Source: Desulfocapsaceae bacterium
GTDB taxonomy: Bacteria > Desulfobacterota > Desulfobulbia > Desulfobulbales > Desulfocapsaceae
NCBI GenBank assembly: GCA_028697885.1
Contig: JAQVER010000002.1
Location: forward strand, 1 to 64,000
Length of the DNA: 64,000 nucleotides
Direction of reading: 5' to 3'
Part shown: positions 8,954 to 62,300 of the stretch, one piece after another
How positions within the stretch are numbered: position 1 is the first letter of the stretch
Layout: the number at the start of each line of letters is the position of its first letter
Notes under the pieces: model-generated
The model's input: only the letters and a program-made list of their open reading frames with translations
Told to the model about the DNA's origin: nothing
Database searches by the model: none
Translations under genes and position numbers: made by a program

Positions 8954-9535
8954 ATGTTGAAAATAGCGGTTCTTTTATCGGGAAGCGGCAGAACCCTTGA
9001 TAATTTTCATGAGCGTATCGGCAATGGAACACTTGATGCAGAAATTCAGGTGGTTATTTCCAATGTCAAAGATGCGCTGGGTTTAAGTAAGGCCGAAAAA
9101 TATGGCTATCCCGCCTTTTATGTTGCCAAAAATGAGGCCATTAACGCAATCTTGAAGGACTATCCGATAGATATTATCTGTCTTGCCGGGTTCCTGAAAC
9201 TCTATGAGCCACCCCCAGCCCTGGTCCGGTCGGTGATCAATATCCATCCTTCCTTGATTCCCGCCTTTTGTGGGGATGGCTTTTATGGCTCACGGGTGCA
9301 TCGAGCGGTCAAGGAGCGGGGTTGTCTGGTCAGTGGCTGTACGGTGCATTTTGCCAGTGAAGTCTATGACGAAGGGCCGATCATAGTCCAGAAGAGTGTT
9401 GACCTTGATTATGATGATACCCCTGAGAGCATTGCAGCCAAGGTGTTTGCCGCAGAGTGCGAGGCCTTTCCCGAGGCGCTGAACCGAGTCAATGAAAAAG
9501 GGATAGATTTTTTCTGGAAGCGGGTGCAGTCATGA
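8954..9535 (+). CDS. purN: Phosphoribosylglycinamide formyltransferase
   Basis: Transfers a formyl group from 10-formyl-THF to GAR, step three of purine synthesis. The 193-residue protein has KIAVLLSGSGRTLDNF at the N-terminus, IICLAGFLKLY, the catalytic NIHPSLIPAF motif (Asn-His), GCTVHFASEVYDEGPII with the conserved aspartate, and a Rossmann-like fold length. The active-site loop reads CGDGFYG, a variant found in a subset of PurN proteins. It starts 3 bases after the cyclohydrolase stop with AGGAATAAG upstream, and its end overlaps pyrR by 4 bases. Confidence 0.93.
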   Translation: MLKIAVLLSGSGRTLDNFHERIGNGTLDAEIQVVISNVKDALGLSKAEKYGYPAFYVAKNEAINAILKDYPIDIICLAGFLKLYEPPPALVRSVINIHPSLIPAFCGDGFYGSRVHRAVKERGCLVSGCTVHFASEVYDEGPIIVQKSVDLDYDDTPESIAAKVFAAECEAFPEALNRVNEKGIDFFWKRVQS

Positions 9536-10074
9536 GCAATGAGTCACGCACTATCCTTACAGCTCAGGAGATGGATCTGGCCCTGAAAAGAATTGCTCTG
9601 CAGATCCTTGAACGCAACCATTCCGTCGCTGATCTGGCCATTGTCGGCATCCATACCTGCGGCGTGGATCTGGCAGAGCGAATCAGAAAGATTATCCAGG
9701 AGCAGGAGGGGGTAGAGATTCCTTTCGGCAGTCTTGATATCACCCTCTACCGTGATGACTGGAGCCTTATCTCCCAGAATCCCGTGGTCCGCACCACTGA
9801 TATCTCCTTTACGGTGGAAGGAAGCAGGCTGATTCTGGTGGATGATGTCCTGTACACCGGTCGCACCATCAGGGCGGCCATGGATGCCATCATGGATTAT
9901 GGCCGCCCCCACTCCATTCAATTGGCGGTGCTGGTTGGCCGAACTGGCCGTGAGCTTCCCATCCAGGCCGATTATACCGGCATGCAGACAACGGTTCAGC
10001 CCTACGAACGCATCCAGGTATTACTCAAGGAACATGGCGGCCGTGATGAAGTAGTGATCCAGAGGAGTATCTAG
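9532..10074 (+). CDS. pyrR: PyrR uracil phosphoribosyltransferase/pyrimidine regulator
   Basis: PyrR proteins convert uracil and PRPP to UMP and, in some bacteria, bind pyr mRNA to control attenuation. The 180-residue product shows AIVGIHTCGVDLAERI, the SLDITLYRDDW stretch and the PRPP loop LILVDDVLYTGRTIRAA. It is translationally coupled to purN through an ATGA overlap. No pyrimidine gene or obvious PyrR-binding leader is seen beside it, so a regulatory role here is not shown. Confidence 0.92.
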   Translation: MSNESRTILTAQEMDLALKRIALQILERNHSVADLAIVGIHTCGVDLAERIRKIIQEQEGVEIPFGSLDITLYRDDWSLISQNPVVRTTDISFTVEGSRLILVDDVLYTGRTIRAAMDAIMDYGRPHSIQLAVLVGRTGRELPIQADYTGMQTTVQPYERIQVLLKEHGGRDEVVIQRSI

Positions 10075-43944: not shown

Positions 43945-45456
43945 ATGGGGAATAAGATACTAATATGTTGGTTAGGAATGACAGATCTGAGAGCGGCCTC
44001 TGGATCAACAGACGTTGGTTTAGGGCCAGTGGCCCAAGCTGTTGCTGAACAAGCTTACAGAGAGGTGGTGCTTCTCAATAATTGGAAGAAAAACACAGCT
44101 GAAGACTATGTTGTTTGGCTCAAAGAAAAGACTCCTACGCAGATAACTCTCCAACATATTTCTCTCTCAGGACCAACAAACTTCGGCGAGATCTATCAAG
44201 CCGCCACAGCTATCATTTCCGAAAAAATAAAAGAACACGGTCAGGATGCCAATCTTGTCTTTCATCTGAGCCCTGGAACCCCTGCCATGGCCGCAGTCTG
44301 GATTCTCCTAGCCAAAACTCGTTTCCGCGCCGAGTTGATTGAATCATCCAAAGAGCATGGTGTCCGCACGGCCTCTGTGCCTTTTGATATCTCGGCCGAC
44401 TTTATCCCTGACTTGTTTCGGAGGCCAGATAAAACCCTTGAGCGCCTGGCCGCTGGGTTGCCTGATGCCGCACCAGAGTTTGACGACATCATCCATCGCA
44501 GCGAGGTGATGCAGAGGGTGATTCTCAAGGCGCGGCGCATTGCCCCCCGTTCCATCCCTGTCCTTATCGAAGGCGAATCCGGCACCGGCAAGGAGTTGTT
44601 CGCCCGTGCCATTCATGACGCCAGTCCGCGAAAGGACAAGCCCTTTGTGGCCATTAACTGCGGGGCCATCCCCCCAGAACTGGTCGAGTCGGAACTATTT
44701 GGCTATGAAAAAGGGGCCTTCACAGGCGCCAATACCGCTAGGGTCGGCCATTTTGAAGCAGCCCACACCGGCACTATCTTTCTCGATGAGATCGGCGAGC
44801 TACCGAAAGAGATGCAGGTCAAGCTGCTCCGCACCCTGCAGGAAGGCGAGGTCAAGCGCATAGGCGCAACTGCGCCCAGGAAGGTCGACGTAAGAATTGT
44901 TGCGGCTACCAATAGAAATCTTATTGAAGAGGTGGCGGCCTGCTCCTTTCGGGAAGATCTCTTCTACCGGCTGGCCGTGGCGGTGATCAAGCTACCGCCC
45001 CTGCGGGAACGGGAAGGAGATATCAGCCTACTGGTTGATCAATTCCTTGACCGGATCAACCAGGAAAGCAGTAATGAACCTGGCTACAAGCAAAAGAAAA
45101 TTTCTGCTTTCGCAAGAAATCTTCTCCTTTTGCACCCTTGGCCAGGCAATGTCCGCGAGTTGCAGAATACCTTGACCAGGGCAGCGGTCTGGTCGCTGGA
45201 TGAAGAGCTTGGCGTGGAGGATATCCGTGAGGCCCTGCTCCCGGTTCCCGCGCCCGGCAAGGGAAAGGACGCGATTCTCAACCAGCCGCTCACCCAGGGA
45301 GTCGATCTGCCGGAGATCATGAAAACCGTGGCGGCTCATTACCTTGAACGGGCGCTTGAAAAAAATAACGGCAACAAGACGAAAACCGCTAAAACACTGG
45401 GACTTCCAAGCTATCAGACCCTGACTAACTGGCTCAAGAAATACGGCCTCGAATAA
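43945..45456 (+). CDS. RtcR-like sigma-54 activator with CARF-type sensor domain
   Basis: The 503-residue protein has three parts. Residues 1-165 resemble the CARF-type sensor of RtcR: an N-terminal Rossmann start (KILICWLGMTDLRA) and the ligand loop HLSPGTPAMAAVWILLA with H107 to P113, followed by AELIESSKEHG. Residues ~175-410 are the AAA+ domain: Walker A GESGTGKE (210-217), GAFTGA intact at 257-262, FLDEIGELP (Walker B) and REDLFYRLAV. The C-terminus is a Fis-type HTH (NNGNKTKTAKTLGLPSYQTL). Known RtcR activates RNA-repair genes from a sigma-54 promoter on sensing RNA ends. Here no rtcA or rtcB is present; the target is the restriction/defence operon, whose sigma-54 promoter starts two bases after this stop codon. 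Confidence 0.88.
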   Translation: MGNKILICWLGMTDLRAASGSTDVGLGPVAQAVAEQAYREVVLLNNWKKNTAEDYVVWLKEKTPTQITLQHISLSGPTNFGEIYQAATAIISEKIKEHGQDANLVFHLSPGTPAMAAVWILLAKTRFRAELIESSKEHGVRTASVPFDISADFIPDLFRRPDKTLERLAAGLPDAAPEFDDIIHRSEVMQRVILKARRIAPRSIPVLIEGESGTGKELFARAIHDASPRKDKPFVAINCGAIPPELVESELFGYEKGAFTGANTARVGHFEAAHTGTIFLDEIGELPKEMQVKLLRTLQEGEVKRIGATAPRKVDVRIVAATNRNLIEEVAACSFREDLFYRLAVAVIKLPPLREREGDISLLVDQFLDRINQESSNEPGYKQKKISAFARNLLLLHPWPGNVRELQNTLTRAAVWSLDEELGVEDIREALLPVPAPGKGKDAILNQPLTQGVDLPEIMKTVAAHYLERALEKNNGNKTKTAKTLGLPSYQTLTNWLKKYGLE

Positions 45457-45458
45457 GT

Positions 45459-45474
45459 TGGCACGGTCATTGCT
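45459..45474 (+). promoter_or_regulatory. Consensus-perfect sigma-54 promoter of the defence operon
   Basis: TGGCACGGTCATTGCT matches the sigma-54 consensus TGGCACG-N4-TTGCW at every fixed position, with GG (45460-45461) and GC (45472-45473) 10 bases apart. Transcription should start near 45485, about 26 bases before the hsdR ATG. It faces the defence genes and directly follows the sigma-54 activator gene. Confidence 0.93.
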
Positions 45475-45510
45475 TTATAGGCAATCAAATTATCACTTTT
45501 GGATGAAACG

Positions 45511-47802
45511 ATGAGTCGAAACGAAAAACAGACATGCAGGGAATTGATTGAACCTGCCCTCAACAGTGCCGGCTGGGAATGGGATTCTCAAGTCATCATC
45601 GGTCCTGGTCGGGTCAACATTACCGGCGAGGCCATGTACGATGAGACGCAGGCAATCATCGCTGATTATGTCTTGCGATATCGTGGCATCCCTCTGGTTG
45701 TCCTGGAGGCCAAGGCCGAGGCGGCCAGTGCCGCCGATGGTATGCAGCAGGGTTCTCGTTACGCCCAGCGTCTGGATATTCGTTTTTCCCTTGCCTCCAA
45801 CGGCACCGACTGGATTCTTACCGATAACTATTCCGGCACCTTTGAAACCATCGCAGTCGCCCCTACCCCGGAAAACATTCTCACCCGCCACGGCGTTTTT
45901 ATGGACTGGGACCGCTGGGGAGATACTTTTGCGGCCGGATACCATGTTGACCAGGTGAGCCGCAAGAAGGTCCGTCCCTATCAGGATATGGCCATCCATA
46001 AAACCCTGTGGCAATTTGCTCAGGGGGATGATCGGGTGCTTTTGCTCATGGCCACCGGCACCGGCAAGACCTTTACCGTGTTCCAGCTCATCTGGAAGAT
46101 GATGAATAGCGACGCGCTCAAGCGCCAGCATGTTCTCTTTCTGACTGACCGCAACTCCCTCAAGGATCAGGCTTATCGAGCCTTTGCCGCTTTTTCAGCC
46201 AACGAGCGTGTCACCGTTGATAAGGATACTGTGGCCAAGGGGTAGCACGAGGTTGGCAAAATTTTCTTTGCCAATTACCAGAGCCTGGATGAAGAGCTGA
46301 ACGGTAAAAAGGTCTTCGCCCATTACGATCCTGACTTTTTTGACCTGGTCATCATAGATGAGTGCCATCGTTCCGGCTTTGGCGACTGGTTCGGTGTACT
46401 GGAGCATTTCAGTTCCGCCCTGCAACTGGGCCTTACTGCTACACCCCGTGAACTGGAAGAGAGCCGCCGCGTCTTGACCAATGAGGAAAAACGCCGTGAC
46501 ACCTACGAATATTTTGGCGAGCCGGTCTATACTTATAGTCTTAAACAGGCCATCGAGGATGGTTTCCTGGTCCCTTATCTGCTGGAGGAACGAATCACCA
46601 ACCTTGATGAAGAAGGTTATACCAGCGCGGACGGCAAGCATTACACCACCGCCAATTTCGAGCGCGACATCCGTATGCCGGACCGCACCAAGGCTATTGC
46701 CGAGGATCTCTGGTCCATTCTGGGTAAATATGGTCTGCGGGATGAAAAAAGCATTATCTTTTGTGTGGATGACACCCATGCCGCCTTTATGGCGGCCGAG
46801 TTACGGCGCCTCGCAGGAGACAATGACTATGCCGGCCGTATTACTCGTTCTGAGCGTAACAGCCACCAGCTGGAGCGCAACTTTGCCATTGTAGGTCCAA
46901 GCAAACCACGCATCGCCGTAACCGTGGACCTGCTGACCACCGGTTTCGATGCCCCGGATGTCAAAAATATCGTCTTTGTCCGGCCGCTCAAGAGCGCCAT
47001 TCTCTACAAGCAGATGAAGGGGCGCGGCACCCGTCTATGTGACGACATCAATAAACGTTATTTTACCATTTTCGATTATTCTGGGGCCAGTCTGCTTGAG
47101 GATACCGAGTTTGACGGCCATCCGGCTAACAAGCAGAAAGGGACTCAGCCCAAAGCCAAGCCAAGGAAGAAAACCGACGAGCCGACGGTCAAGCCGGTAG
47201 GCGAAGGCATCTCCGTGATCATCTCCGATACCAACCGCTATGTGTGCCTGGCGGATGGCCGTAAAATTCCTTTTGAGGAGTACACTGAGCAGTCGCGGGA
47301 GTTTATCCTTGATGTCTCCACAAAGTCCATTGACGAACTGCTCGCCATCTGGATCGACAAGAACAGCCGCAAGGAGCTGCGCGAAGAACTGCGCGACCAT
47401 GATATTTATCCTTCCGCCTTCCGCCATTACCTCGATCTGCCGAAAACCGATGACGTGGACATCCTGGCCAAGATCGGCTTCAATCTGGTGCGGGTGCCAT
47501 CGCGTGACGATCGCGCCACCCGTTTGCTGGTGGAGGACGAACTTTGGCTGCTGAATCAGCTCGGAGAAAAAGCCATTTCCCCGGATGATCGTATCAAGTT
47601 GAGATTCTGGGATACCGCCCTTGACCATTACCGGCTGTTCGGCATCGATGATCTGGAGCAGGCCCGCACCTACAGCGCCCCCCAGTTTGTCGAGCAGTTC
47701 GGTAGCTTTCAGACCCTGACCAGTCGCTATGGCGGCCCGCAACTTTTAAAAAACGATCTGGAGGCGGTGAAGCGCCACCTCTATATTCCCATGACCGCAT
47801 AA
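45511..47802 (+). pseudogene. hsdR: Type I restriction endonuclease subunit HsdR, interrupted by an in-frame TAG
   Basis: HsdR is the ATP-dependent translocase and nuclease of type I restriction. The frame runs 763 codons to 47802 but has one TAG at 46243-46245 (codon 245); on both sides the same frame is open and reads as HsdR. N-terminal part: the nuclease domain with IPLVVLEAKAEA and then Walker A ATGTGKT (181-187). After the stop: FANYQSLDEEL, the DECH box (283-286), LTATPREL and LTTGFDAPDVKNIVF with QMKGRGTRL. ATG 45511 has GGA 7 bases upstream; a TTG at 45499 is in frame. A nonsense mutation, sequencing error or suppressed stop are all possible. Without read-through the helicase is split and restriction should be lost. 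Confidence 0.88.
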
Positions 47803-47818
47803 GCAAGGAAAACACTCC

Positions 47819-49291
47819 ATGACCAATAAAACCGACCATCGTCGCCAGGAAGTCCAGCAGATCGTAAAAAATGCCTGCGACCAGCTTAATCAGGAGGGCG
47901 TTGATGCCCGCAACTACGTGGAGCAGCTTGCCTGGCTCTTCTTCCTGAAGGCCTTTGACGAGGCTGAAACCCGACGCGAGGAAGAGGCCGCCTTTGACGA
48001 CAAGGAGTATGAACGTCGCCTCTCTGGCGAGTATGCGTGGTCAAACTGGGCCAAGGATACCGACCACGCCGACCAGATGCTGGAGTTTGTCGATGGCAAG
48101 CTGTGGATCAAACTCACCAGCCCTGATCCTAAAAAAGGTATGGGGGATGAGCCGCTGGCCCAGCGTTTCCGCCGGATCTTTGACAATGTCCGCAATTACT
48201 GCCGTCGTGGCACAACCTTTGCCAGAGTGGTCCAGCAGGTGGACAAACTCCATTTCTCCAGCGAGACCGATGTCATCGTGCTCTCGGAAATTTATGAAGA
48301 CCTGCTGAAACGGGTGGCCGCTGATTCGGCAGGCTATGCCGGGGAGTTTTATACCCAGCGCCACATCATCCGCGCCATGGTTGAGGTGGTGCAGCCTAAA
48401 TCCGGCAACCGGGTCTATGACCCTTGTTTCGGCACCGCCGGCTTCCTCGGTGAATCTGCCGATTACATCCGGCGCAACAACACCTTGAGCGGTCCGCAGC
48501 TCGACGCCCTGCAGCAGAAAACCTTTTTCGGCATGGAGATCAAGCCGCTCACCTATCTGCTCGGCACCATGAACATGATCCTGCACGGTATCGAAGGGGC
48601 CAATCTGGAGTTGACCAATACCCTGGAGGTGCACAGCCAGAATGTTGGCGAGAAGGCCAAATATGACGTGATCCTCTCCAATCCGCCCTACGGCGGCAAG
48701 ATGGCTCAGGAGATGCAGACAAATTTCCGGGTGCACTCCGGTGCCACCGAGTGTCTCTTTGTCCAGCACATTATGGCCAACCTGGCCAAGGGCGGCCGTG
48801 CTGGGGTGGTAATTCCTGAAGGGGTACTGTTCAGGGGCGGGCCGGACCAGAAGGTTCGTAAGGAGCTTTTGGAACAGTTCAACGTTCATACCATCCTCTC
48901 CCTGCCCGCCGGCTGCTTCCTGCCCTATACCGGGGTCAAGACCAATGTCATCTTTTTCGACCGACCTAAGGATGGCAGTGCAACAAAAAACGTCTGGTTC
49001 TATGAACTAACCAACGATGGTTTTGAATTGAAATCGACCAGGAAGCCCCTGGAGGGCAACCAGATTCCCGATTTTCTGGCCAAGTGGCAGATGCGAGAGG
49101 AGGACGAAAATTCTTGGTCCATACCCATCGAAGAGATCATCGAACGGGGCTATGACCTATCGGCCAAGAACCCGAACCGCAAAGACGACTATGAACATCG
49201 CCCGGCCCTGGAGCTGGTGCAGTCTATCAAGGCCAAGGAAGAGAGGATAATGGATCTGCTGAACGAGCTGGAAGGGATTTTGGAGAAATAA
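47819..49291 (+). CDS. hsdM: Type I restriction-modification methylase subunit HsdM
   Basis: N6-adenine methyltransferase of the type I complex. The 490-residue protein has the N-terminal HsdM helical domain (YVEQLAWLFFLKAFDE), GEFYTQRHIIRAMVE, the AdoMet motif I YDPCFGTAGFLGE (about 200), and the catalytic NPPY at 288-291 in VILSNPPYGG. The end contains GYDLSAKNPNR and a coiled tail that contacts HsdS. It begins 16 bases after hsdR with AAGGAAAAC upstream; hsdS starts 2 bases after its stop. Confidence 0.95.
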   Translation: MTNKTDHRRQEVQQIVKNACDQLNQEGVDARNYVEQLAWLFFLKAFDEAETRREEEAAFDDKEYERRLSGEYAWSNWAKDTDHADQMLEFVDGKLWIKLTSPDPKKGMGDEPLAQRFRRIFDNVRNYCRRGTTFARVVQQVDKLHFSSETDVIVLSEIYEDLLKRVAADSAGYAGEFYTQRHIIRAMVEVVQPKSGNRVYDPCFGTAGFLGESADYIRRNNTLSGPQLDALQQKTFFGMEIKPLTYLLGTMNMILHGIEGANLELTNTLEVHSQNVGEKAKYDVILSNPPYGGKMAQEMQTNFRVHSGATECLFVQHIMANLAKGGRAGVVIPEGVLFRGGPDQKVRKELLEQFNVHTILSLPAGCFLPYTGVKTNVIFFDRPKDGSATKNVWFYELTNDGFELKSTRKPLEGNQIPDFLAKWQMREEDENSWSIPIEEIIERGYDLSAKNPNRKDDYEHRPALELVQSIKAKEERIMDLLNELEGILEK

Positions 49292-49293
49292 AC

Positions 49294-50454
49294 ATGCATA
49301 CAACCACACCCAAAGGCTGGGAAACCAAATCCCTTGAAAATCTTTTAGATATCCAAAATGGTTATGCCTTTGCATCCGACAGATTTTCAAATGATAGAGG
49401 TATGCCGCTTATTCGCATACGTGACCTGAAAGGTGGTTATGGAACTGTGGTCAGATTTGATGGCGAATTTGATGACAATTTCGTTGTTAAATCAGGCGAT
49501 CTTTTAATCGGGATGGATGGTGAGTTCCGTTGCTATAAATGGCAAGGCCCTGATGCTTTACTGAATCAGCGAGTATGTCGGCTTATTGATTTTAGTGATG
49601 AGCTGCTTCCTGATTTTGTTCTTTTTGGGATTAATCCACATTTAAAAGTCATCGAAAAAAATACACCTTTTGTGACGGTACGACATCTATCTGCCAAAAA
49701 AATTAAATCGATTGATTTTTCGTATCCACCTCTCGATGAACAGCGCCGCATCGTCGCCCGCATCAAGGAGTGCATGGAACGAGTGGAGGAGCTTGAGGGC
49801 CTTAGGGCGGAGGCCATGCGGGAGCGTGATTATCTCCTGGAATCTCTGATTGAGGCAGAATATCAGGAGGCTGAGGGAAAAAATGTAATGCTCACTGATA
49901 TTTGCGCAATCACGTCCAAACTTGTTGACCCGCGAGAGCAGCAATATGTCGATCTGATACATATCGGGGGGGGCAACATCGAGGCCAAGACCAGCAAGCT
50001 ATTGGAGTTGAAAACCGCTCGAGAGGAAAAACTCAAATCAAGTAAATTCGTCTTTGATAACTCGATGGTGCTTTACAATAAAATCCGGCCTTATCTGATG
50101 AAGGTCGCTCGGCCTGATTTTTCAGGCCTTTGCAGCGCCGATATGTACCCGTTGCTTCCAGACCCTGAAAAGTTAACCAGAGATTATTTGTTCTATCTGC
50201 TTTTATCGCGGAATTTTACGGATTATGCAATTGCAGGCTCGAACCGAGCTGGTATGCCAAAAGTGAATCGTAATCATCTGTTTGCATACAAATTCACTTT
50301 GCCATCAATCGAAAAACAACAACGGATTACCGAGACATTGGATGTTGCTGTCTCGGCAGTGGAAGAGCTGCGAGCAGATATGACCCTGAGCTCCTCAGAA
50401 ACCAATGCCCTGCGCGAATCCATTCTCCGCAAAGCCTTTGCCGGAGAACTATAG
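49294..50454 (+). CDS. hsdS: Type I restriction-modification specificity subunit HsdS
   Basis: Recognises the bipartite DNA target. The 386-residue protein has two target-recognition domains: TRD1 (about 5-150, GWETKSLENLLDIQNGYAF, ending YPPLDEQRRIV), a central coiled-coil helix (150-195), TRD2 (about 200-335, ending FTLPSIEKQQRITE) and a C-terminal helix with ESILRKAFAGEL. Both halves end in the conserved P-x-x-EQ-x-x-I pattern, so it is full length. It is 4 bases before the next start. Confidence 0.93.
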   Translation: MHTTTPKGWETKSLENLLDIQNGYAFASDRFSNDRGMPLIRIRDLKGGYGTVVRFDGEFDDNFVVKSGDLLIGMDGEFRCYKWQGPDALLNQRVCRLIDFSDELLPDFVLFGINPHLKVIEKNTPFVTVRHLSAKKIKSIDFSYPPLDEQRRIVARIKECMERVEELEGLRAEAMRERDYLLESLIEAEYQEAEGKNVMLTDICAITSKLVDPREQQYVDLIHIGGGNIEAKTSKLLELKTAREEKLKSSKFVFDNSMVLYNKIRPYLMKVARPDFSGLCSADMYPLLPDPEKLTRDYLFYLLLSRNFTDYAIAGSNRAGMPKVNRNHLFAYKFTLPSIEKQQRITETLDVAVSAVEELRADMTLSSSETNALRESILRKAFAGEL

Positions 50455-50458
50455 GCCA

Positions 50459-53400
50459 ATGGCTGAGCTCTCTTCCACCACACCAGCCGGGAAACAGCTG
50501 GACATCCTGCGCGGCAATAGCCCGCTGGCGGCCCACGAATTTCTACAGGTGCTGTCAGCATTCATCTTCCTGCGCTGGGCAGACTTCCAGGAGGCGGAAC
50601 TGGAGGCCGTTGCCGCCTTTGATGACACCCCCTATGAACCGATACTTCCACCCTTTCTGCACTGGCGCACCTGGCACCAGTTGCCTGCTGCCGAGCTCTA
50701 TCTTTTCCTGACTGAGCGTTTGCCCGCATCATTACAACAGCTCCAAAATTTCCGGCACAATCCCCTGGCCACCCATCTGCATCGTCTGGCTGACCCCTTA
50801 CACAAACTGGCAGGACTAAGGCCCGAGCAGATAGGCTCTCTTATCCTATGGCTGGCCGAGCAACCCTTTGAGACCCCGTCTGATCGGCGTCAGTTACTCG
50901 CCACCTTTGACGGGCTCCTCGAAGCCGGGCAAGACAAACACTCCGGCGAGTACCGGACCCCGCGCCATATTGCCGGGCTTATGGTAGCCCTGGCCGCTCC
51001 TGTGCAGGGAGAGAGTATCTATGACCCTTGCTTTGGCACGGCAGGCCTGTTGACCATGGCCATTGACCAGGTCTTGCAGAAGGCAACGCAGAACAATGGC
51101 GGTTTTGCTGTGGCGGGTTTGGATATTTCCGGCATCGAGATAAATACGTCTGCCTATCTCATCGGCCTGACCCGGCTGGCGCTGGCTGGCAGTGGCGATC
51201 CGCAACTGGAGCTAGGCAACAGCCTAGAGCGTACCCCCTCGGGTAATCTTCAGCAGGACGGCTTTGACCTTGTGTTGGCCAACCCGCCCTGGGGATGGAC
51301 CGCCAGGCTGGATGAGCGCTATGGTCTGGAGCATTATCCCGTTATGACCAAGGATGCCACCGGACTCTTTTTGCAGCATGCTCTGGCCAATCTGCGTGCC
51401 AATGGCCGGGCTGTCATCGCTGTCCCCAATGGCGTCCTTTTCAGAAGCGGAGCGGAATATAAATTACGGCGCTGGCTGCTGGATCACCACAACGTCGAGG
51501 CGGTTATCGCCCTGCCGGAAAGGGCCTTTATGCCAACCACGGCTATCAAGTCAAGCCTTCTGGTATTGCGACGGGGTAACAGTACCCGCAAGGTCCGTAT
51601 GGTGGATGCTGAACCCTTTTTCGAGAAAGGCAAGGGGAGACAACCGGCAACTATTTCAGAGGAGGGATCCTTTAAGCTGGCCGAGGCGATCCGAAACGTG
51701 GAACCATCTGAGTTCTGCTGGGATGTGGAGCTCAAGGTGCTGGCAGAATCAAAATTCGACCTTACCCCGCGCCGCCGTGACCAGAGCGGGCTTGATACGA
51801 CCCTTGAGGCCCTGCGCCCATCAGTCGAAGTGGTAACTCTCAAGGATTGCTGCAGGATCGCCACCAGTCGTCAAATCCCCGTAGCTGATCTTGTGGACGA
51901 ACGGCCAGAAGTCTCAAGCCCCTTGGAGCAACAACCGCTTTTTAAAGAGAACACAAAGAACGTAGAGCAGCAGAGCCTTTCCCCGTCTGCCGAGCCAATC
52001 CCCTATATCCGCATCAGGGACATCCACAAAGGCCAGGCCGGTAAAGGCAGTTCCTGGTTGTCAGCGGCGACCGCCCAGAAGGTGGAACCTGGCTGGAAAC
52101 TACGGGCCGGGGATGTGCTGTTTTCCAAGTCAGGGACCATCGGTAAGATCGGAGTTGTCCGTAACGGCGCAATCGGCGCTATTGCGGCAAGCGGGCTCTA
52201 TGTCCTGCGGGCGGATAACAACCGCCTTGACCCTCATTATCTTGCCGCCTATCTCGACAGCAGCGAGTGCCGGGCCTGGCTCCAGGACCGGGCAACCGGC
52301 GCGGTCATCAGCCATCTAGGCCGGCCGGTTATTTACAATACCCCTATACCGCTTCCGCCGTTACAAATACAACAGCGGGTTGCTGCCGCCTGGCGGGAAC
52401 ACGGGGTGGATGCTCTGACCTACTTAGCCCGGCTGCTGACCGATGGAGAGGAGGATCCCATTGTTGCTTGGCTTGAGAAGGAGCTAAAAACATTCCCGGC
52501 TGATCCGGAATCCCTGACCGATCCTCTGGCTCTTGGCCCCCTCGATGAACTTGCCGACCGCGTCCGGCCTCTGCGCAATGAGGCGGCCCACGGCAGGCAT
52601 GGTGACAATACCCTGCTGCCCTGGATTTTATCATTCAACGAGGCCGTGTCCCCCTTGCGTGGTGTCAACGATATACCCCATGGGCCGGGGCTGCTGAGCG
52701 TCCTGCAGGAATCTGGGCTCGGCCTTTTGGGTGCAAAAGATGCAGTAAGTGGACACCTGCCCAGCGAGGAGAAGGCCCGGAAGTTGACCGATATCGTTTC
52801 CAAATGGCTGAGTCGGGCGATTACCGTCCTGTTTCATGATGTGCAGCTAGTTTTCAGTGCGGAAACTTCCACTTTTATATCTGGCGAGTTTCAGGAATTT
52901 GACCTGAAGGTGCAAAACGGCGGCCCTCTGCCATTACGAAAGGTGATGATTGTTTTTGAACCGGAGTGGGGGCAGGGCAACATCAAATATCTGGCAGAGA
53001 ATGGTGTCGAAACCATAGGACTGAAGGCGGATCCACCCAAGACAGCAGGACCGTTCACGCTGGTGGCCCGCTGGAGCGCCCTGGCCCTTGACGGCCAGCA
53101 AGTGGATGGCGCACGGGAGATCGCCTTTGATGTATTACCTGCAGCTCAGCCGAAAGAAGACGTGGTCCAGGATCTCGGGGCCAGTCCCTATGTCTGTGGT
53201 GATCCGATCCGGCCGGAGCGCAATGATGTGTTTTTTGGCCGGGAAGAGCTGCTCGATCAGATCCGCCGCCAGATTGTCCAGAGTGGCAATGTTGTCTTGC
53301 TGGAGGGTAATCGGCGGGCCGGGAAATCCTCCATCCTTCGTCACTTGGAGGGTGTCGGACCTATACAAGGCTGGCTGGGTGTGTACTGCAGCCTGCAGGG

Positions 53401-54418
53401 CGCCGAGGGCAGTCAGGATGGTGTAGGAGTACCTACGGCGGCGGTTTTTCGGGAAATCGCTATTAGCATTGCCAAGGCGATGGTTCCACTGGGTATCGAG
53501 GTGCCCCTGCCCGATGGCAGCACCCTGCCCCCTGGGAAGAAGATCGGTATTGCCAGGGCTTGCCGCCAGGGGATCAGCGAGGAACATTCATTTGCTGATT
53601 TCCGAGATTATGCGGAAATGGCCCTGGAAACGATGGAAGAGCGGCAGCTTGGCATCCTGCTGATGCTGGATGAGTTTGACAAGCTGCAGGAAGGCATTGA
53701 CAATGGGGTGACCTCGCCGCAGGTTCCTGAAAACATCCGCTTTCTGGTGCAGACTTACCCGGGTTTTTCCGCCATCCTGACCGGTTCGCGACGGTTGAAG
53801 CGTTTGCGGGATGAATACTGGTCCGCGCTCTTTGGGCTTGGCACCAGGTTCGGTGTGACTTCGCTTTCTCTGGAGGCTGCTAGACATCTGGTGACGGAAC
53901 CGGTCAAGGGCCGTCTGGTCTATTCACGAGAGGCCGCTGAATGGGCCATCGTGCTGACAAATCGTCAGCCTTTTCTGCTCCAGAGCCTCTGTAACCGCAT
54001 CTTTGATATGGCTGCCCAGCTGAAACACCGCTCCATCACCCTGGAAATGGTCAATGAAGCAGCGGCCCTGCTTGCCGATGACAATGAACATTTTCGCAGC
54101 CTATGGACCTACTCCGGTTCCGACCGCCGCCGGTTTATTCTGGGACTAATCAATAAAGAGACGGACGGGGCTGACCCTTTGCGTTTCGGCGTCCTGCGGG
54201 AGCTGCTTTCAACCCATGGAGTGGAGGTTGAGGACGATACCCTGAGTGATGATTTGGAGTTTCTGAGGGAACTGGAACTGGTTGATCTGGTCGGTGAGGG
54301 TGAAAGTGGCCATTACGCCCTGGCCATCCCGCTCATGGGCAAATGGATCGGCCGGCAACATGATTTTGAGGTGTTGAAAAATAAAGCACGGATGGAAACG
54401 GAGGATAACCATGGTTGA
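50459..54418 (+). CDS. Fused adenine methylase / specificity domain / AAA ATPase protein
   Basis: A 1319-residue fusion. Residues 1-450 are an HsdM-like methylase: FLQVLSAFIFLRWADF, GEYRTPRHIAGLMVA, motif I YDPCFGTAGLL (about 189) and NPPW at 275-278. Residues ~455-650 are one HsdS-type target-recognition domain (YIRIRDIHKG, AGDVLFSKSGTIGKIGVV, LPPLQIQQRVAAAW). A helical and beta-rich linker follows (650-915; GEFQEFDLKVQNGGPLPLRK). The C-terminal part is a STAND-like ATPase (NDVFFGREELL, Walker A GNRRAGKSS at 950, LLMLDEFDKL as Walker B near 1070, SLEAARHLV) and a wHTH tail. ATG 50459 is chosen; the upstream frame overlaps hsdS. I know no named system with this exact fusion. Confidence 0.85.
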   Translation: MAELSSTTPAGKQLDILRGNSPLAAHEFLQVLSAFIFLRWADFQEAELEAVAAFDDTPYEPILPPFLHWRTWHQLPAAELYLFLTERLPASLQQLQNFRHNPLATHLHRLADPLHKLAGLRPEQIGSLILWLAEQPFETPSDRRQLLATFDGLLEAGQDKHSGEYRTPRHIAGLMVALAAPVQGESIYDPCFGTAGLLTMAIDQVLQKATQNNGGFAVAGLDISGIEINTSAYLIGLTRLALAGSGDPQLELGNSLERTPSGNLQQDGFDLVLANPPWGWTARLDERYGLEHYPVMTKDATGLFLQHALANLRANGRAVIAVPNGVLFRSGAEYKLRRWLLDHHNVEAVIALPERAFMPTTAIKSSLLVLRRGNSTRKVRMVDAEPFFEKGKGRQPATISEEGSFKLAEAIRNVEPSEFCWDVELKVLAESKFDLTPRRRDQSGLDTTLEALRPSVEVVTLKDCCRIATSRQIPVADLVDERPEVSSPLEQQPLFKENTKNVEQQSLSPSAEPIPYIRIRDIHKGQAGKGSSWLSAATAQKVEPGWKLRAGDVLFSKSGTIGKIGVVRNGAIGAIAASGLYVLRADNNRLDPHYLAAYLDSSECRAWLQDRATGAVISHLGRPVIYNTPIPLPPLQIQQRVAAAWREHGVDALTYLARLLTDGEEDPIVAWLEKELKTFPADPESLTDPLALGPLDELADRVRPLRNEAAHGRHGDNTLLPWILSFNEAVSPLRGVNDIPHGPGLLSVLQESGLGLLGAKDAVSGHLPSEEKARKLTDIVSKWLSRAITVLFHDVQLVFSAETSTFISGEFQEFDLKVQNGGPLPLRKVMIVFEPEWGQGNIKYLAENGVETIGLKADPPKTAGPFTLVARWSALALDGQQVDGAREIAFDVLPAAQPKEDVVQDLGASPYVCGDPIRPERNDVFFGREELLDQIRRQIVQSGNVVLLEGNRRAGKSSILRHLEGVGPIQGWLGVYCSLQGAEGSQDGVGVPTAAVFREIAISIAKAMVPLGIEVPLPDGSTLPPGKKIGIARACRQGISEEHSFADFRDYAEMALETMEERQLGILLMLDEFDKLQEGIDNGVTSPQVPENIRFLVQTYPGFSAILTGSRRLKRLRDEYWSALFGLGTRFGVTSLSLEAARHLVTEPVKGRLVYSREAAEWAIVLTNRQPFLLQSLCNRIFDMAAQLKHRSITLEMVNEAAALLADDNEHFRSLWTYSGSDRRRFILGLINKETDGADPLRFGVLRELLSTHGVEVEDDTLSDDLEFLRELELVDLVGEGESGHYALAIPLMGKWIGRQHDFEVLKNKARMETEDNHG

Positions 54419-56009
54419 TTTACCCTTCCCGATTTTAGGGACAGATATACCACCAATGCTGGGCAGGACACGTATCATGCAGCGGATGTGGAGTGATCTC
54501 ACCAAACAGACTCCAAGTCACCTGCAAATCGTGGGGCCGCGATATGCTGGGAAGACCGTCTTGATGCACGGACTGGCGAAGCTAATGGTGCAAGAAGATT
54601 CCCCCTATGCTGCGGTGATCGTATGGGACCTTGGCCACCAGACACCGGATTCCAATGAGGCCTTTCTCAAGGCCCTGTGCGATAAGCTGGGCGAGGGACT
54701 GAAGGCAAGCGGGAATGACTACGGGGATCATCTGCTTGCGGTTGAGGATGACGAATATAACGAGTTGCGGGATGTACTCGATGCATTGCATGACGATGAG
54801 AGCAAGGTGCTGATGCTCTGGGATGGTTTTGATAAACCGCTCAGCACCGGCAAGCTCACCCGCAATCTCTGGGACCAGTTGCGAGAACTGGCTTCTAGCC
54901 CAAGTCTGCGACTGGTCACAGCTACCCGCCGCCCACTGGCTGAGTTGATCCGCAGCGAGGAATCGGTAGCCAGTGATTTCTGGAATATCTTTGACATGAC
55001 ACCGGTTCGGGTGGATATCTTCGATGAAGATGACAGGGCGACCATTCTGGCAAGGCTGCCGGGTTACACCTTCAAAAGCGGTGCCTTGAGTGAACTTGAG
55101 AACTGGTCGGCGGGATATCCGCCTCTGTATCTGACCTTGCTCAACCATATTATAGAAAGTGGAGCTGCTGGCGAGATAGATAATCAGGCAGTCAACAATG
55201 CTGCAGAGGCAACTCTTGATGGTGTGAGCGGAGTTCTCAATTACCTGTGGAACGATTGTCCGGAGACGGCAAAAAATCTCTACCGGTACTTGGTTGAACA
55301 TAGTGAAATAGCTGTATCAGATGTTGGCATTTCTGAACGCACGCTGCTGATGAAAAAAGGGTTCATTAAAGTATCAGGGAACAGAATATCCAAAGGTTGC
55401 CGGTTATTGGAACAGCACATCAAGAGCCTTGGCAAGGATGCAGGCAGTATGGTTCGCTTATTCGGACCATGGGAAGCATATCGTAGTAATATCCGTGGGC
55501 TACTTGAACTTCGCCTTGCCCAGATAAATCAATTTGACGAACGATTACCACGCTATGTCGAATTTTCTATAAAACGACTCCCTGAGGACCCCGCAAGTGC
55601 ACTAAACGACTTAACAAGCATTGAAGAGCGAGGTCTTGATCTTATTTGGGAGCGTGAGTTTGGAGCCGTACGACTTGTCCCTAGTGATATTGTTGCTTAC
55701 TGGACGGTCAGCCCGAGAGATCGAAATTATTTCATTCAAGATATGATGAAAACTAATTCTTTTGAGGTTCCGCTCGATAGGTTTCAGCAATTACGATTAT
55801 TGCAATTACTAACTGGCAGCACCAAGGATTTCGAATCAAAGTCCAAAACCGTCTCAAAGGATAGCTACGTTCTACTTAACGCAATTCACTGTTTCCGTAA
55901 TCGCAATCAGCATGGTGGAGGTCAGGAAACACATCTTGGTGTTGCTGTAGCTGCAATTATGACTTGCATGGAATTGCTCGCTTGCTTGGATAGAGAGTCA
56001 GGGGTGTGA
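54411..56009 (+). CDS. STAND/AAA-like ATPase, partner of the fused methylase
   Basis: The 532-residue protein begins with a P-loop ATPase: MLGRTRIMQRMW, Walker A GPRYAGKTVLMHGLA (about 42-49), VLMLWDGFDKPL as Walker B (about 135) and LVTATRRPLAEL as sensor. Residues ~250-345 look like a winged helix, and the C-terminal ~170 residues are helical with HCFRNRNQHGGGQETHLG, a conserved-looking polar patch with R, N and H spaced as in HEPN-type RNase folds (inference). It overlaps the preceding gene by 8 bases, so the two are translationally coupled and probably interact. The N-terminal start resembles the ATPase region of the previous protein, suggesting a related pair. Confidence 0.75.
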   Translation: MVDLPFPILGTDIPPMLGRTRIMQRMWSDLTKQTPSHLQIVGPRYAGKTVLMHGLAKLMVQEDSPYAAVIVWDLGHQTPDSNEAFLKALCDKLGEGLKASGNDYGDHLLAVEDDEYNELRDVLDALHDDESKVLMLWDGFDKPLSTGKLTRNLWDQLRELASSPSLRLVTATRRPLAELIRSEESVASDFWNIFDMTPVRVDIFDEDDRATILARLPGYTFKSGALSELENWSAGYPPLYLTLLNHIIESGAAGEIDNQAVNNAAEATLDGVSGVLNYLWNDCPETAKNLYRYLVEHSEIAVSDVGISERTLLMKKGFIKVSGNRISKGCRLLEQHIKSLGKDAGSMVRLFGPWEAYRSNIRGLLELRLAQINQFDERLPRYVEFSIKRLPEDPASALNDLTSIEERGLDLIWEREFGAVRLVPSDIVAYWTVSPRDRNYFIQDMMKTNSFEVPLDRFQQLRLLQLLTGSTKDFESKSKTVSKDSYVLLNAIHCFRNRNQHGGGQETHLGVAVAAIMTCMELLACLDRESGV

Positions 56010-56312: not shown

Positions 56313-59300
56313 ATGAGCGATAACGAAGAAAATAAATATCAGGCCAATGATGCGGACACGGTTGTAGGTGAGATATTTTCCGGTGGGATCACTGTAAGCG
56401 AGGCCATAGAGCGTTTGCGAAAGCGCCTGCTCGATCTGTCATCACGCAACAGATTGCTCAACTACCGTCATCCAAAGGGGCGCAGCGTCCAGATAGCCGA
56501 CGAGCCGAACAGTAATCTGGTGTTCGAGCGGATTTATGACGATGGCAAAGCGGTTCCCTTCAAGTACGTTCCTGAGCCCGATCCGAAAAGTTATGAGGGC
56601 AAACGGCCCGAGGCCAAGTTGCAAGCTGCTAGGATTGGTATTTCTACATCATTTGAATTTTCGCCAAGCCAAACTGAAACCCAAGGGCGCAGGCTTCACG
56701 GCATACAGACACTTCTGTATCCTGCTGACCTTGAGCGGCAGCTGCGTAAGATAGCAAGCGAGGCCAGGACTGCTATTGAGGAGACCGGCAGCAATATGCT
56801 CTATCTGGTGTTCGGCTTTCTCGAGTTCTACGACAGCGAAGATTCTGACCGCCCGTTGCTTGCCCCGCTGATCTCACTTCCAGTCACGCTTGTTCGCGAG
56901 GGCATTGCTCCAGACACTCGTACATACCAGTACAGCGTAATGCACAGTGGCGAGGATCTGGCTGAGAACCATACCCTACGCGAGAAAGTCCGTCGGGATT
57001 TTATGCTCAGTCTTCCGGAGTTCGCTGAGGAAGATTCACCAGAGGCGTACTTCGCCCGTATTGAGCAGGCAGTCAGGAATAAGCACAGGTGGAAGGTGCG
57101 ACGGCAGATCACTCTTGGCATGCTTTCTTTCGGTAAGCTAGCAATCTGGTCTGATCTGGACACCAAGAAAAACCCCGGCCTTTTGGAGCACGACCTCATC
57201 AAGTCGGTCTTCTCGGGTGGGCAGTGCGAAGTCGGTGATGGATTCCATGCCGAGGACTATCGGATTGATGAATTCCCCTTAGAATCGCAGGCCCTCATCT
57301 ACGACGCGGACTCGTCGCAGCACAGTGCGATAATTGATGTCCTTTCTGGCAAAAACATGGTCATTAACGGGCCTCCCGGTACCGGCAAGTCGCAGACCAT
57401 TACCAACATCATCGCCTCGGCTCTTTCAAAGGGCAAGAAGGTTCTGTTTGTGTCCGAGAAACTTGCTGCTCTTGATGTTGTGCGCAACCGTCTTAATCAC
57501 GCTGGCCTTGGGCATTTTTGCCTCGAACTTCATTCTCATAAGACTCACAAAAAGAAATTTCTTGAGGATGTTGAGGTTCGAATCGAGCAGCAGTTCCCTT
57601 CCTCGGTAAAACTTCAAGCTAAACAAGCCACCTTGCAGCGGCAAAAGGTGGAGCTTGCAAGATATGCTGAATTGATAGGCAGCCGGATCGGCAATGCGCT
57701 TGGCATGACGATTAATGAGATCTTCTGGGCGGCTGAGCGACGGCGGCAAGAGCTGGGAGATCTCTCAGGAGTGGTCAATGCTATCGGATTCCCCGATGCC
57801 TCCAGATGGGTATACGACGATATTGAGTCCCGTCGCTCCAGAATTGAAGGTCTTGCTGAATTGCACGATGCTGTTGGACAATTTAACGAACAGCATCCTT
57901 GGTGGGGATTTTATCCTAATCCACTGATTCCTTCTGATGACGATGCCATTGCCCGTATTATTCGACATGCGCTGGAGCGAGCGCGTGAGGCTGACAGGGC
58001 TGCGGAGGATGCTGTCTTATATTTTAATCTTAATGACCAGCCTTCGACTGTCTCGGCAGGTTTGATCAGGGAAAAACTGGCCAACATCCTTGAGTTTCCC
58101 GGCGAAGCTGATGCGTCTCTTTTGGGTAAGATGTTTGCTCCTAACTCCGATCCTAATGGACAGCACAGTTTCAAGTGTCTTTCTGATATAGTGTCGGGTG
58201 TTGAAAAAGCACGGGAGCTTTTCAAGGTGGCCAGTACCTCTTTAATTGATGGTACTCAATTTTCTGGCGATGAAGTTGAAGAGATAAAAAACCGTGTTGT
58301 GTATCGACAACTGCAAGATAGCCTTATGTCAGCTGATCTTTATAAGGCACAGGAACGAGCGGTCGTGTTTGAGCAGGCAGTGGAAGCGTTTGCTGCTGCT
58401 GCCCAGGACACTACACCCCCTTACAATGCAGCGAGTCAGGCTGCTGTCGAGGAGTTTCTCGGTGCCTATGCGAAGATTTCGGCTTTGGGTTTGGCTCCGG
58501 TAAGAATTACAAGGGCTTTGGACAGGGCAAAAGCATTAACGGACGTTATTTCCAAACTGGTTACAGCGCTTGACCACATCTCGGACATCGCTAAGCGCAG
58601 GAAACTGGCTTTTGATTCTTCACCTGACTCTGTAGCAAGGTTGGCCGGCTCGCATGGTATCCCTGGTTTAGCAAACCAGGTTGAGATCAACCCGCAGATT
58701 TTGGAGAAGGCGCGCAGGTTCGTGGCGTTTCCATTAGCCGATAAATCGATTGCAGAAATCGAACGATTGAAGGGTTCCCTTGAAACCGAGACAGCAATCT
58801 GTGTAGATGCCTTGGGGCGTTGTCGGACGATTATTGAACGCTTTGGCATTGCATTTGATCAAACGGAGCGCTCTGTTGAAGAAGCCTCAATTCTTGCGAC
58901 CTTGGCCTTGCAAGCTCCTGCCGATTTACTTGAATACAGACAGCCAAGTTTTGGTCATGTGAGAACAACTGAACTTATCGCCAAGATCGAGAGTTTCCTT
59001 GTTTCAGAACAAAAGATGCGTGCAGATCTCGACCAGATTTTTTACCTCGATGCCCTGCCTGAAATCTCTGATATTAAATCCTCGGTAGTTGTGTTGAGGC
59101 AAAAGGACGGTTTTTTTGCGTTCTTTGATGGGAAATGGCGCAAGGCGCGTCAGCTTCATGCAGGTTTGTGCAAGGAAAAACGAAAGCTTTCGGCGAGACA
59201 GCGAATGGAGGAGCTTGCCTGTTTGATATCGTGGATTGAATCTCGTGATGCCTTTATCGAAGATCCTGAATTTAAGGAGTGTTTTGGTAGTCTGTTTCGT

Positions 59301-62300
59301 GGACTTGAAACCGATATCGAAAAAATTGTACGTTTGAATGACTGGTATCTCTCTACTCACGCAGCCTTTGTTAAATGTCCAGGTTTGTCCGACAAGGTTA
59401 ATTTGTCGTCGATTCCTTCTGAAAGAATTTCCGAACTGGCTGTCAAGGCAAATATTGTCTGTGTAGACGTGGAGAGCTTGGTTGGTATTGACGCTGCCAT
59501 TCGAGGTGTGTTGGGCGCGAATATCACCGGTTTCCGGGATGCCCGAGCCAGAAGTTGGGATGAGGGGCTGGAATGTCTACATCGGGCCGTGACGGGGTTA
59601 GAAACGGAGTCAGGGTTTTTTGCCGAATTTGCCGACCGAAATTTGTCTCCAAGGGATGCCTTGCGTCTCATGGAGGCAAAGGCTGAGTTGGAGGCGTCTT
59701 CTTCGGATTTGGCTTTGCTTATGGAGGGGCACAAAGCCTTGAAAGAGGTCGCTGGTGATGAGCTGTCTCAAATTGTCGCGGTGACTGACGGTCAATGGTC
59801 TGAGCGTCTGCCGATGTTGTCAAAGATGGCTTCCCTTGTAGCAGATACCGTACACCAAGCCCTTGCCTTTGCTGGTGTGGACTCTTCATTTTTGTTCGCT
59901 GAAACCTTCGCAAGGACCAAATCTACAATGGACGAAAAGTGGGCCGATATTACTTCGTTGCCCGCATGGAACCGCTTCGAGAATTGGCAAGGGCTAATCG
60001 TAGCGGCGCAGGACGAAGGGCGGGCGGTCAGGGAATTTTTAGAAAAGTTGGCAACCTGTGCACGGCCAAGTGTTTCAGCCGCTGCCGTGCTTGGTGCAAT
60101 CGCTAAAAAAATCGAGGCTGAATCTATTCTGGATCGGCTTGCACGATCGGAGGAAGTATCTTTGTTGTTCGGCAACCTTTTTCAAAGAGCCGATACCGAC
60201 CTGGAGCGATTGTCTCTAACCCACGCATGGGGACGGTCGGTATGCGAAATAGACTTACCCGCTGCCGTTCAATGGCGCCTGCTTTCTGATGGTGCTCAGG
60301 AAGTATTGGGAAGGGGACGGGCTCTTTTCTCCGAAATTGACGATAGCTGTCGAGACACCAAAGTGTTTCTTGAGGGACTTTGTTCGTATGGCTCGTTTAA
60401 TTGGGATGAATGGCAAAAGCAGGAGCGTGCTCAAAACTTGCTGGATCGACCTGCTGAAATTGTGCGCCGTATAGAGTCGGCTGACGTTGCGCCAGGATCG
60501 GTACTTCCGTGGTCGAAATATCTTATGGCTCGTGAACAGGCTCAACAGCTGGGACTTGGTGATTTTGTGGATGCTTTGGAGTCGAACAAGATTCCCTCGT
60601 CCAGTCTTGCGTCGGCTTTTGAATTATCAGCCTATCAATCTATTGGTCGTTCAATCTACCAGGCATTTCCAGAACTTTCGGGATTTACCGGTGCGACCCA
60701 TGATAAGATTCGCGCAGACTATCAGGCGCTTGACGCTGAAATTGTTTCTCTGACCGGAAAGGATTTTGCCAGCCAAATCGATACCCGTACCCGTGTTCCT
60801 GAGGGCAGGCGTGGCGCGACTGTAGGTGAGTATACTGATATGCACTTGCTGCGTAGGGAGATCAGTAAACAACGACGACATATTCCGATCCGACAGTTGA
60901 TTAAGCGAGCCGGCAATGCGCTGCAGGAGCTCAAACCGTGCTTTATGATGGGCCCACTTTCTGTGGCACAGTATCTTGAACAGGGTGTTTTGGAATTTGA
61001 TCTGGTGGTTATGGATGAGGCCTCTCAGCTCCGGCCAGAGGAGGCATTGGGTGCTATCGCTCGTGGTAATCAGTTGGTGGTGGTGGGTGATCCTAAGCAA
61101 TTACCACCGACGAGCTTTTTTGATCGCCTGGTGGACTCCGGTGACGGCGATGAAGAGGATGACGAGGCTCCGGCTGCCATCAGCGGCATGGAAAGCATTC
61201 TGGACATCTGTCAGCAATTGTTTACCCCGGTGCGCAGCTTGCGGTGGCATTATCGATCGCAGCATGAATCGCTTATCGCATTTTCGAATCACCATTTTTA
61301 TAAAAATCTGGTCGTGTTCCCTTCACCTTATGCGAAGAATCCGGGGCTTGGAGTGAAATACCGGTATGTTAAAAATGGATTGTATAGGGACAGACAAAAT
61401 AAGCCCGAGGCTCAACGGGTGGTTGACGCTGTTCTGGAACACATGATCAAGCGGCCCGACGAATCACTTGGTGTCGTAACGCTCAACCAGACCCAACGTG
61501 AACTTATCGAGGATCTGCTTGACAAGAAGCTGAAAACTTTTACAGAAGGTGTAGAATTCTTGGGACGTTGGGAGACTGAGGGTTGGCCATTCTTCGTCAA
61601 GAACCTTGAAAACGTCCAGGGCGATGAACGTGACGTTATTTTCATTTCTACCACCTTTGGCAAAGTACCGGGCACGGACAAAGTGCGCCAGAACTTCGGC
61701 CCAATCAGCCGTCCGGACGGTTGGCGTCGACTAAATGTACTTTTTACACGTTCAAAGCGGAGGATCGAGCTTTTTACGTCCATGTCGCCAGAGGATATCA
61801 TAGTCGATGAAAAGACCCCCTTGGGTACAAAAGCCCTGCGGGATTATCTTGACTTCGCCAAATTCGGGGTTTTGGTAACGACAGACGAAAATGTGCGAGA
61901 ACCGGATAGTGACTTTGAGATATCAGTGGCCAATGTTATTACAGCAATTGGTTATGAAGTTAAACCGCAATTGGGTGTTGCAGGATTTTTCATCGACATG
62001 GCGGTACGGAATCCAGATAGACCGGGTGAATTTTTGGCTGGCATTGAATGTGATGGTGCCACCTACCATAGTGGAAATTCGGTGCGTGACCGCGACCGCA
62101 TTCGCCAGGAAATTCTTGAATCACTCGGATGGAAGTCACGGATCCATCGGATCTGGTCCACGGATTGGTTTTACAACCCCAGGAAAGAAGTTGAGCGTCT
62201 TCGGAATTTTCTAGAAGAACGGCGTCGCATAAGTATAGCAGAGGAGCCGGATAATTGGGAGAAAGCAGACAACTACACCCTGGATGATGACAGCTCGGAG

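Follow-up and report, generated by a model that had tools for sequence, protein, structure and literature searches.

A half-HsdS methylase fused to an ORC/STAND-type ATPase in an operon that looks like a variant of type I restriction machinery

Architecture of the fusion protein

The 64,000-nucleotide stretch of Desulfocapsaceae bacterium DNA analysed here (contig JAQVER010000002.1 of assembly GCA_028697885.1, positions 1 to 64,000; hereafter the window) contains a single unbroken forward-strand frame at 50459-54418, which encodes a protein of 1319 residues (hereafter the fusion) and whose ATG lies 4 bases past the stop of hsdS. An earlier note, made from the sequence alone, had placed methylase motif I, NPPW, one target-recognition domain (TRD), a Walker A motif at residue 950 and a DEFD motif in this frame, and all of them were recovered at those positions by Pfam and motif analysis. 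The fusion may be described as HsdM joined to half of an HsdS (one TRD), with the remaining HsdS replaced by a helical and immunoglobulin (Ig)-like linker and an ORC/Cdc6-STAND AAA+ ATPase. Its parts, with residues counted from the ATG at 50459, are:

50459 to 54418, forward strand: the whole fusion, HsdM-like methylase, half HsdS, helical domain, Ig-like domain, ORC/STAND AAA+ ATPase and winged-helix-like end
50459 to 51793, forward strand: HsdM-like N-terminal part and N6-adenine methylase, residues 1-445 (PADLOC MTase_I, E 1e-61)
51281 to 51292, forward strand: catalytic motif IV, NPPW, residues 275-278
51998 to 52378, forward strand: single TRD (residues 514-640), after which an HsdS-type conserved helix begins (Methylase_S match)
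52379 to 52843, forward strand: predicted helical domain (residues 641-795), which in the window copy contains an RNEAAHG motif (AlphaFold2 model; no Pfam match above cut-off)
52844 to 53158, forward strand: predicted Ig-like beta-sandwich, residues 796-900 (AlphaFold2 model; Foldseek matches to beta-sandwich proteins)
53171 to 54415, forward strand: ORC/Cdc6-STAND AAA+ ATPase and C-terminal winged-helix-like part, residues 905-1319 (Walker motifs; Foldseek)

Full-length homologs, 39-63% identical to the window copy, were found in Desulfobulbaceae (L005), other Desulfobacterota (L006 and L008), Fimbriimonadaceae (L007) and Verrucomicrobia (L009), and on plasmids of Acinetobacter ursingii; together with the window these make up the seven independent loci compared throughout. 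The window's genome is a draft of 174 contigs, and the earlier note had named an assembly error joining separate genes as a possible objection. Such a join is ruled out, and we put its probability at practically nil, since a single frame spans the entire fusion in each of five other genomes (L005-L009) as well as in a finished Acinetobacter plasmid, whose annotation gives it as one coding sequence.

The domain searches proposed in the same note found N6_Mtase (E 5e-47) and Methylase_S (approximately residues 514-642, E 6e-7), while nSTAND1 was weak (E 4e-4 with the whole protein and 4.5e-5 with the ATPase part alone, under the Pfam cut-off). Motif I (YDPCFG) starts at residue 188. The features of a gamma-type N6-adenine methylase, i.e., motif I, (N/D/S)PP(Y/F/W) and a TRD after the catalytic domain, are present in six of the seven homologs, where motif IV reads NPPW (four times), NPPF or DPPW; the Acinetobacter protein has HPPV instead. 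No nuclease domain was matched by Pfam in the methylase-TRD chain, and no effector or repeat domain was found in the fusion by Pfam or PADLOC.

Walker A (GNRRAGKS, residues 950-957, positions 53306-53329) and Walker B (LLMLDEFD, residues 1067-1074, positions 53657-53680, with DEFD at 1071-1074) are kept in all homologs. In Foldseek searches with the predicted structure of the ATPase, ORC2 and RuvB ranked at the top and Apaf-1 and a plant resistosome further down, with poor overall superposition; a PDB sequence search with this part gave no match. With both Walker motifs, an ORC-like predicted fold and a C-terminal winged-helix-like part, the ATPase is assigned to the ORC/Cdc6-STAND clade by modelled fold and motif, its sequence match to any STAND family being under cut-off. 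The AlphaFold2 models were built on six sequences and are of moderate quality, with mean predicted local distance difference test (pLDDT) values of 76 and 66.

The operon and its second ATPase

The fusion is the fourth of five genes that follow a regulator and a promoter on the same strand:

43945 to 45456, forward strand: regulator of RtcR_PspF2 type with CARF, sigma-54 activator (AAA+) and helix-turn-helix parts (PADLOC PDLC01995, E 5e-204; Pfam Sigma54_activat, E 1e-71)
45459 to 45474, forward strand: sigma-54 promoter TGGCACGGTCATTGCT, 0 mismatches, within the 42-base gap between regulator and hsdR
45499 to 47802, forward strand: hsdR of EcoAI/FtnUII type, likely ATG at 45511 (HSDR_N, ResIII, EcoEI_R_C; NF046051 on both halves)
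47819 to 49291, forward strand: hsdM (N6_Mtase, E 3e-71; HsdM_N, E 3e-15)
49294 to 50454, forward strand: hsdS with two variable TRDs (Methylase_S, E 1e-28, 2 stretches)
54411 to 56009, forward strand: P2, the second ATPase, 532 residues, its first 8 bases overlapping the end of the fusion gene

The window thus holds the genes of a type I restriction-modification (RM) unit, namely hsdR, hsdM and a two-TRD hsdS. The separate HsdM/HsdS set that the earlier note had seen beside the fusion lies directly upstream of it, and hsdR is also there, broken by one in-frame TAG (46243-46245) at which the aligned L005 gene has CAG (Gln). The fusion itself, as one chain with one TRD, differs from type I modification and specificity subunits, which are a separate M and a two-TRD S. 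No pyrrolysine synthetase (PylS) was found above cut-off in the window's genome, so pyrrolysine read-through of the TAG is unlikely; the codon is possibly a real nonsense mutation or a sequencing error. If it is real, the window operon retains modification, the fusion and P2, but not a full HsdR.

P2 follows the fusion in all seven loci and is a paralog of the fusion ATPase (hhalign probability 95%, E 2e-8), with an ORC/Cdc6-like predicted fold (Foldseek matches to ORC/Cdc6 and PABY2304). Because its Walker A is intact and its Walker B reads DGFD where the fusion has DEFD, so that the catalytic Glu is missing, P2 probably binds ATP without hydrolysing it. A PDB sequence search with P2 gave weak Clp/Hsp100 AAA+ matches only, and no model of PADLOC 2.0.0 or NCBIfam 20.0 identified P2 or the ATPase half of the fusion, the matches being weak and partial. 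As a hint at a possible HEPN ribonuclease in the helical domain of the fusion and at the C-terminus of P2, an RNxxxH motif is present in three of the seven fusions (RNEAAHG at approximately residues 706-712 of the window copy) and in three of the seven P2 proteins, so that it is not a conserved feature, and Pfam gave no support for HEPN. At the C-terminus of P2 this motif reads RNRNQH, and its His is kept in all P2 proteins.

Approximately 0.017 perfect sigma-54 promoter matches would be expected by chance in 64 kb. The same element also lies before hsdR in L005 (at 4014) and L008 (at 262), 23-25 bases upstream, i.e., in three loci in all, and rpoN was found in the window's genome. With a CARF/sigma-54 activator gene and a perfect sigma-54 promoter ahead of hsdR, the unit from hsdR to P2 is probably inducible. 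For a type I RM operon under inducible control, the question arises how self-restriction is avoided upon induction. RtcR-like sigma-54 activators at the head of operons with RM genes are already known (PMC4012209, PMC11090510); in the available text of these two papers on CARF/RtcR-headed defence superoperons the fusion and P2 are not mentioned, and the conserved sigma-54 promoter before hsdR is new here. The regulator with its promoter, the P2 gene and the helical and Ig-like domains are features beyond those of the earlier note.

Distribution and conservation

The gene order hsdR-hsdM-hsdS-fusion-P2 is found in six of the seven loci, spanning three phyla, while the Acinetobacter locus has hsdR-fusion-P2. 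As the earlier note had proposed to check, homologs keep both the fusion and its neighbour gene, and they do so in 7/7 loci. The fusion is rare: a profile search found it in two of 258 genomes of the class and in one of 395 in a sample of the phylum. The two class genomes are the window's own and G530, whose HsdR is identical to that of L005; otherwise only distant ATPases were matched. Relatives were absent from IMG/VR and phage records, so the fusion is not known as phage-borne.

Mean pairwise identities between loci, all calculated without Acinetobacter, are 79% for HsdR, 84% for HsdM (range 78-94%), 28% for HsdS, 51% for the fusion and 48% for P2. The TRD stretches of HsdS are only about 15-25% identical and its central conserved helix 52-56%, whereas the fusion TRD averages 56.5% (minimum 43%), next to 52% for the methylase, 36% for the helical and 34% for the Ig-like domain. 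The ATPase is the best-conserved part of the fusion, with a mean of 67%, and with 62% between the window and Acinetobacter. By this pattern HsdS diversifies in the type I fashion and the fusion TRD does not, which suggests a fixed target or a role other than sequence recognition for the latter. This conservation is no proof of either, since TRDs approximately 36% identical can share a target (PMC5399793).

In trees, the HsdR proteins of the fusion loci form a clade with 100/100 support that includes the Acinetobacter protein, and in 251 genomes of the class this clade has only two members, both from fusion-bearing genomes. Among plasmid HsdRs the top score belongs to the Acinetobacter protein adjoining its fusion, with other EcoAI-type HsdRs scoring lower, and no fusion or P2 was present in the displayed stretch of the ordinary EcoAI-type loci that were inspected, from Calothrix, Nostoc, Vibrio and Aquincola. 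Judged by sequence, this HsdR appears to be dedicated to the fusion loci. The fusion methylases form their own 100/100 clade apart from HsdM and are not copies of the local HsdM. Between the window and L005 the silent divergence of hsdR-hsdM is lower than that of the fusion, which points to some mosaic exchange; in other locus pairs the fusion and P2 proteins change faster at similar, near-saturated silent divergence.

Several side observations concern the individual loci. In the window (51929-51943, fusion residues 491-495), L005, L006 and L008 the variable linker before the TRD has between one and three QxxLF/QxxMF/QxxIF motifs, which look like beta-clamp binding peptides and are more numerous than in shuffled linkers; L007, L009 and Acinetobacter have none. 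L006 has a ThsB1-like TIR gene (4859-5812) inside the operon between hsdM and hsdS, L005 a PDC-M14A-like gene (9025-10044) between hsdS and the fusion, and in L009 a frameshift (7522-7524) splits the Verrucomicrobia hsdM.

Defence genes near the loci include Hhe-like, DruH, CBASS, ThsB, DrmD-like and TmtA-like genes. Downstream of the unit the window encodes (56313-62609) a 2098-residue Hhe/ProA-like protein with a DUF4011 helicase, an MTES_1575 nuclease and a fused GreA/GreB C-terminal domain, under the NCBIfam cut-offs for Hhe and ProA. This helicase was considered as a part of the unit and rejected. The genes at this place differ between loci (Hhe-like, DruH, CBASS, DrmD-like with TmtA-like, or no defence match), and therefore they are regarded as neighbours, not parts.

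The reduced form in Acinetobacter

Between the regulator and the fusion of the Acinetobacter locus there is no hsdM or hsdS, and the only other N6_Mtase match on the plasmid is a weak one in a distant frame of 2216 residues. All three plasmid copies have HPPV as motif IV. In HsdR, DECH (helicase motif II) and TATP are lost, while Walker A and the nuclease motif (D...EVK) are kept; the ATPase motifs are intact. The three copies are 99.4-99.5% identical, with full-length frames in the RIVM0002 plasmid; the broken frames in the two RIVM_C011601 copies look like sequencing errors, since flanking genes are broken there too. If HsdR works in Acinetobacter, the fusion must stand in for HsdM and HsdS, as these are missing from the locus. 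From the motifs kept, all members have in common the ATPase pair and a nuclease domain in HsdR, whereas neither methylation nor translocation is common to all.

Comparison with known systems

The operon resembles type I RM systems of the EcoAI/FtnUII family in having all three subunits, a first half of the fusion that corresponds to HsdM plus half HsdS, and an EcoAI-like HsdR; unlike it, the ordinary EcoAI-type loci inspected are without the M-half-S-ATPase fusion and P2, and the fusion TRD is conserved. Type IIG and type ISP enzymes, as well as engineered M-half-S proteins, also have a methylase on the same chain as a single TRD, but type IIG and ISP chains have their own nuclease (and ISP an ATP-dependent motor), while the fusion has an ORC/STAND AAA+ ATPase and no nuclease.

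In BREX and DUF499-centred BREX-related systems (PMC12839542) an N6-methylase stands beside ORC/Cdc6-STAND ATPases, one of them impaired (BrxB iSTAND; here P2), plus a helicase or nuclease; however, in the fusion operon the ATPase is fused to the methylase and the effector would be HsdR. Points of resemblance to MADS (methylation-associated defence system) are a mad2-like methylase, a mad5-like specificity protein and the weak similarity of P2 to mad8, but the mad scores are far under those of generic type I models or under cut-offs. Among the genes scanned (43.9-62.6 kb), PglZ, BrxC, BrxL and DUF499, as well as mad1, mad3, mad4, mad6 and mad7, had no matches; with their defining genes missing there, identities as MADS, BREX or a DUF499 system were rejected. 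The N-terminal effector and C-terminal repeat sensor of AVAST-like STAND defence receptors were not found in the fusion by Pfam or PADLOC. In PrrC/EcoprrI, too, a type I RM locus is coupled with an ATPase protein, but PrrC is an ABC-type ATPase anticodon nuclease, in contrast to the STAND/ORC ATPases and M-half-S fusion described here.

Discussion

Domain order, synteny, promoter, conservation pattern and motif losses are read directly from the sequence. The explanation that we tentatively favour, giving it slightly less than an even chance, is a natural M-half-S enzyme that is licensed by two ORC/STAND-type ATPases and recruits a dedicated HsdR. The fusion and P2 would form an ATPase-gated DNA-recognition complex, this complex would recruit the HsdR nuclease of the operon, and the ATPase pair would decide when HsdR is licensed to cut, as with the BREX methylase and its ORC/STAND ATPases. 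Where motif IV is intact, the fusion probably also methylates a fixed motif, and self-marking is likely there but would be dispensable, while the separate HsdM2S may supply the changing specificity of the shared HsdR. The operon would be switched on through the CARF/sigma-54 activator, the signal probably being an RNA or nucleotide of infection or damage, and an anti-phage role may be inferred. Several findings speak for this reading: the constant gene order across phyla, an HsdR clade confined to fusion loci in the genomes covered, an ATPase that is the best-kept part while Acinetobacter loses methylase motif IV and the HsdR motor motifs and keeps the HsdR nuclease motif, the lack of hsdM and hsdS in that locus, the paralogy of P2 with the fusion ATPase, the sigma-54 promoter of three loci and the defence genes nearby. 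An ATPase-gated M-half-S reader is also favoured by two precedents. An engineered M-half-S fusion with HsdR restricts phage (efficiency of plating 0.10; PMC6158711), which makes the first half of the fusion plausible as a dimeric reader for HsdR, and in BREX a methylase acts with ORC/STAND ATPases, one of them inactive (PMC12839542).

Several points weigh against this explanation. The hsdR of the window has a nonsense codon, so the HsdR effector may be absent there; confidence in the structure models is moderate (see the mean pLDDT values above); the catalytic losses occur in one lineage only, Acinetobacter, on a long branch; and the methylase part of the fusion changes much faster than the HsdM of the same loci, which is unexpected for a shared HsdR-docking surface.

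The main rival, which we consider unlikely, is a STAND guard with a built-in M-half-S decoy: this part would mimic a type I methylase, phage anti-restriction proteins (Ocr, ArdA or Stp-like) would bind it, and binding would trigger the STAND ATPase and, with P2, HsdR or another toxic response. Such a guard would fit the STAND type of the ATPase, the non-diversifying TRD, the fast evolution of the fusion and P2, and the Acinetobacter protein, which lost motif IV yet retains its domains. PrrC offers a precedent (PMC2610378): the guard would act as PrrC does over EcoprrI, except that here the bait is fused to the switch. However, 6/7 members, approximately 50% identical between phyla, keep motifs I and IV, for which a pure decoy would have no use, and this argues against one; additionally, the Acinetobacter locus has no HsdM2S to guard, and neither the fusion nor P2 has a clear toxic effector domain.

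The earlier note had seen the fusion as a self-contained enzyme that marks self DNA and switches on effectors at unmarked sites, independently of the type I unit. A methylase, a TRD and a STAND-type ATPase in one chain speak for this proposal, and so does motif IV, the loss of which the note had named as a refutation and which is intact in six of the seven homologs, although not in Acinetobacter. We nevertheless find it improbable, to the same degree as the guard. In the loci found, the fusion always travels with P2 and the dedicated HsdR, so it is not self-contained; the Acinetobacter losses, with HPPV and a locus without hsdM and hsdS, argue against a pure self-marking enzyme and do not allow self-marking as a general claim; and as to effectors, the ATPase chain has no recognisable effector domain, HsdR being the only conserved nuclease, with its helicase motif II lost in Acinetobacter. 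Still less probable, in our view, is an ordinary second methyltransferase, i.e., an M-half-S enzyme that is orphan or accessory and serves epigenetic control or maintenance methylation, with an ATPase that only assists loading. The motifs left intact in most members agree with it, as does the conservation of the TRD, which is consistent with a fixed motif, but an obligate second ATPase, a dedicated HsdR, defence-gene surroundings and an inducible promoter do not, and Acinetobacter drops methylase motif IV while it keeps the ATPase.

In the usual view, methylation is what lets restriction enzymes distinguish the cell's own DNA from foreign DNA, and in type I systems the HsdR motor drives cleavage. 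Going beyond the licensed M-half-S enzyme favoured above, one may suppose a restriction class in which an ORC/STAND ATPase pair, one member fused to an M-half-S reader, replaces both methylation-based discrimination and the HsdR motor, so that in the Acinetobacter form a reader without methylation and an HsdR without translocation leave ATPase switching and a nuclease; we regard this as doubtful.

For the fusion-P2 set, no description was found in the open-access literature searched, in PADLOC 2.0.0 or in NCBIfam 20.0, and the operon looks like an undescribed, ATPase-controlled variant of type I restriction machinery. It combines an ordinary type I unit of variable specificity, apparently inducible, with an ATPase switch that is fused to a reader whose TRD is non-diversifying, and in the reduced form methylation and translocation seem to have been given up. 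If this is true, the operon would connect type I restriction with BREX-like and STAND-like defence and would show a possible evolutionary route between them.

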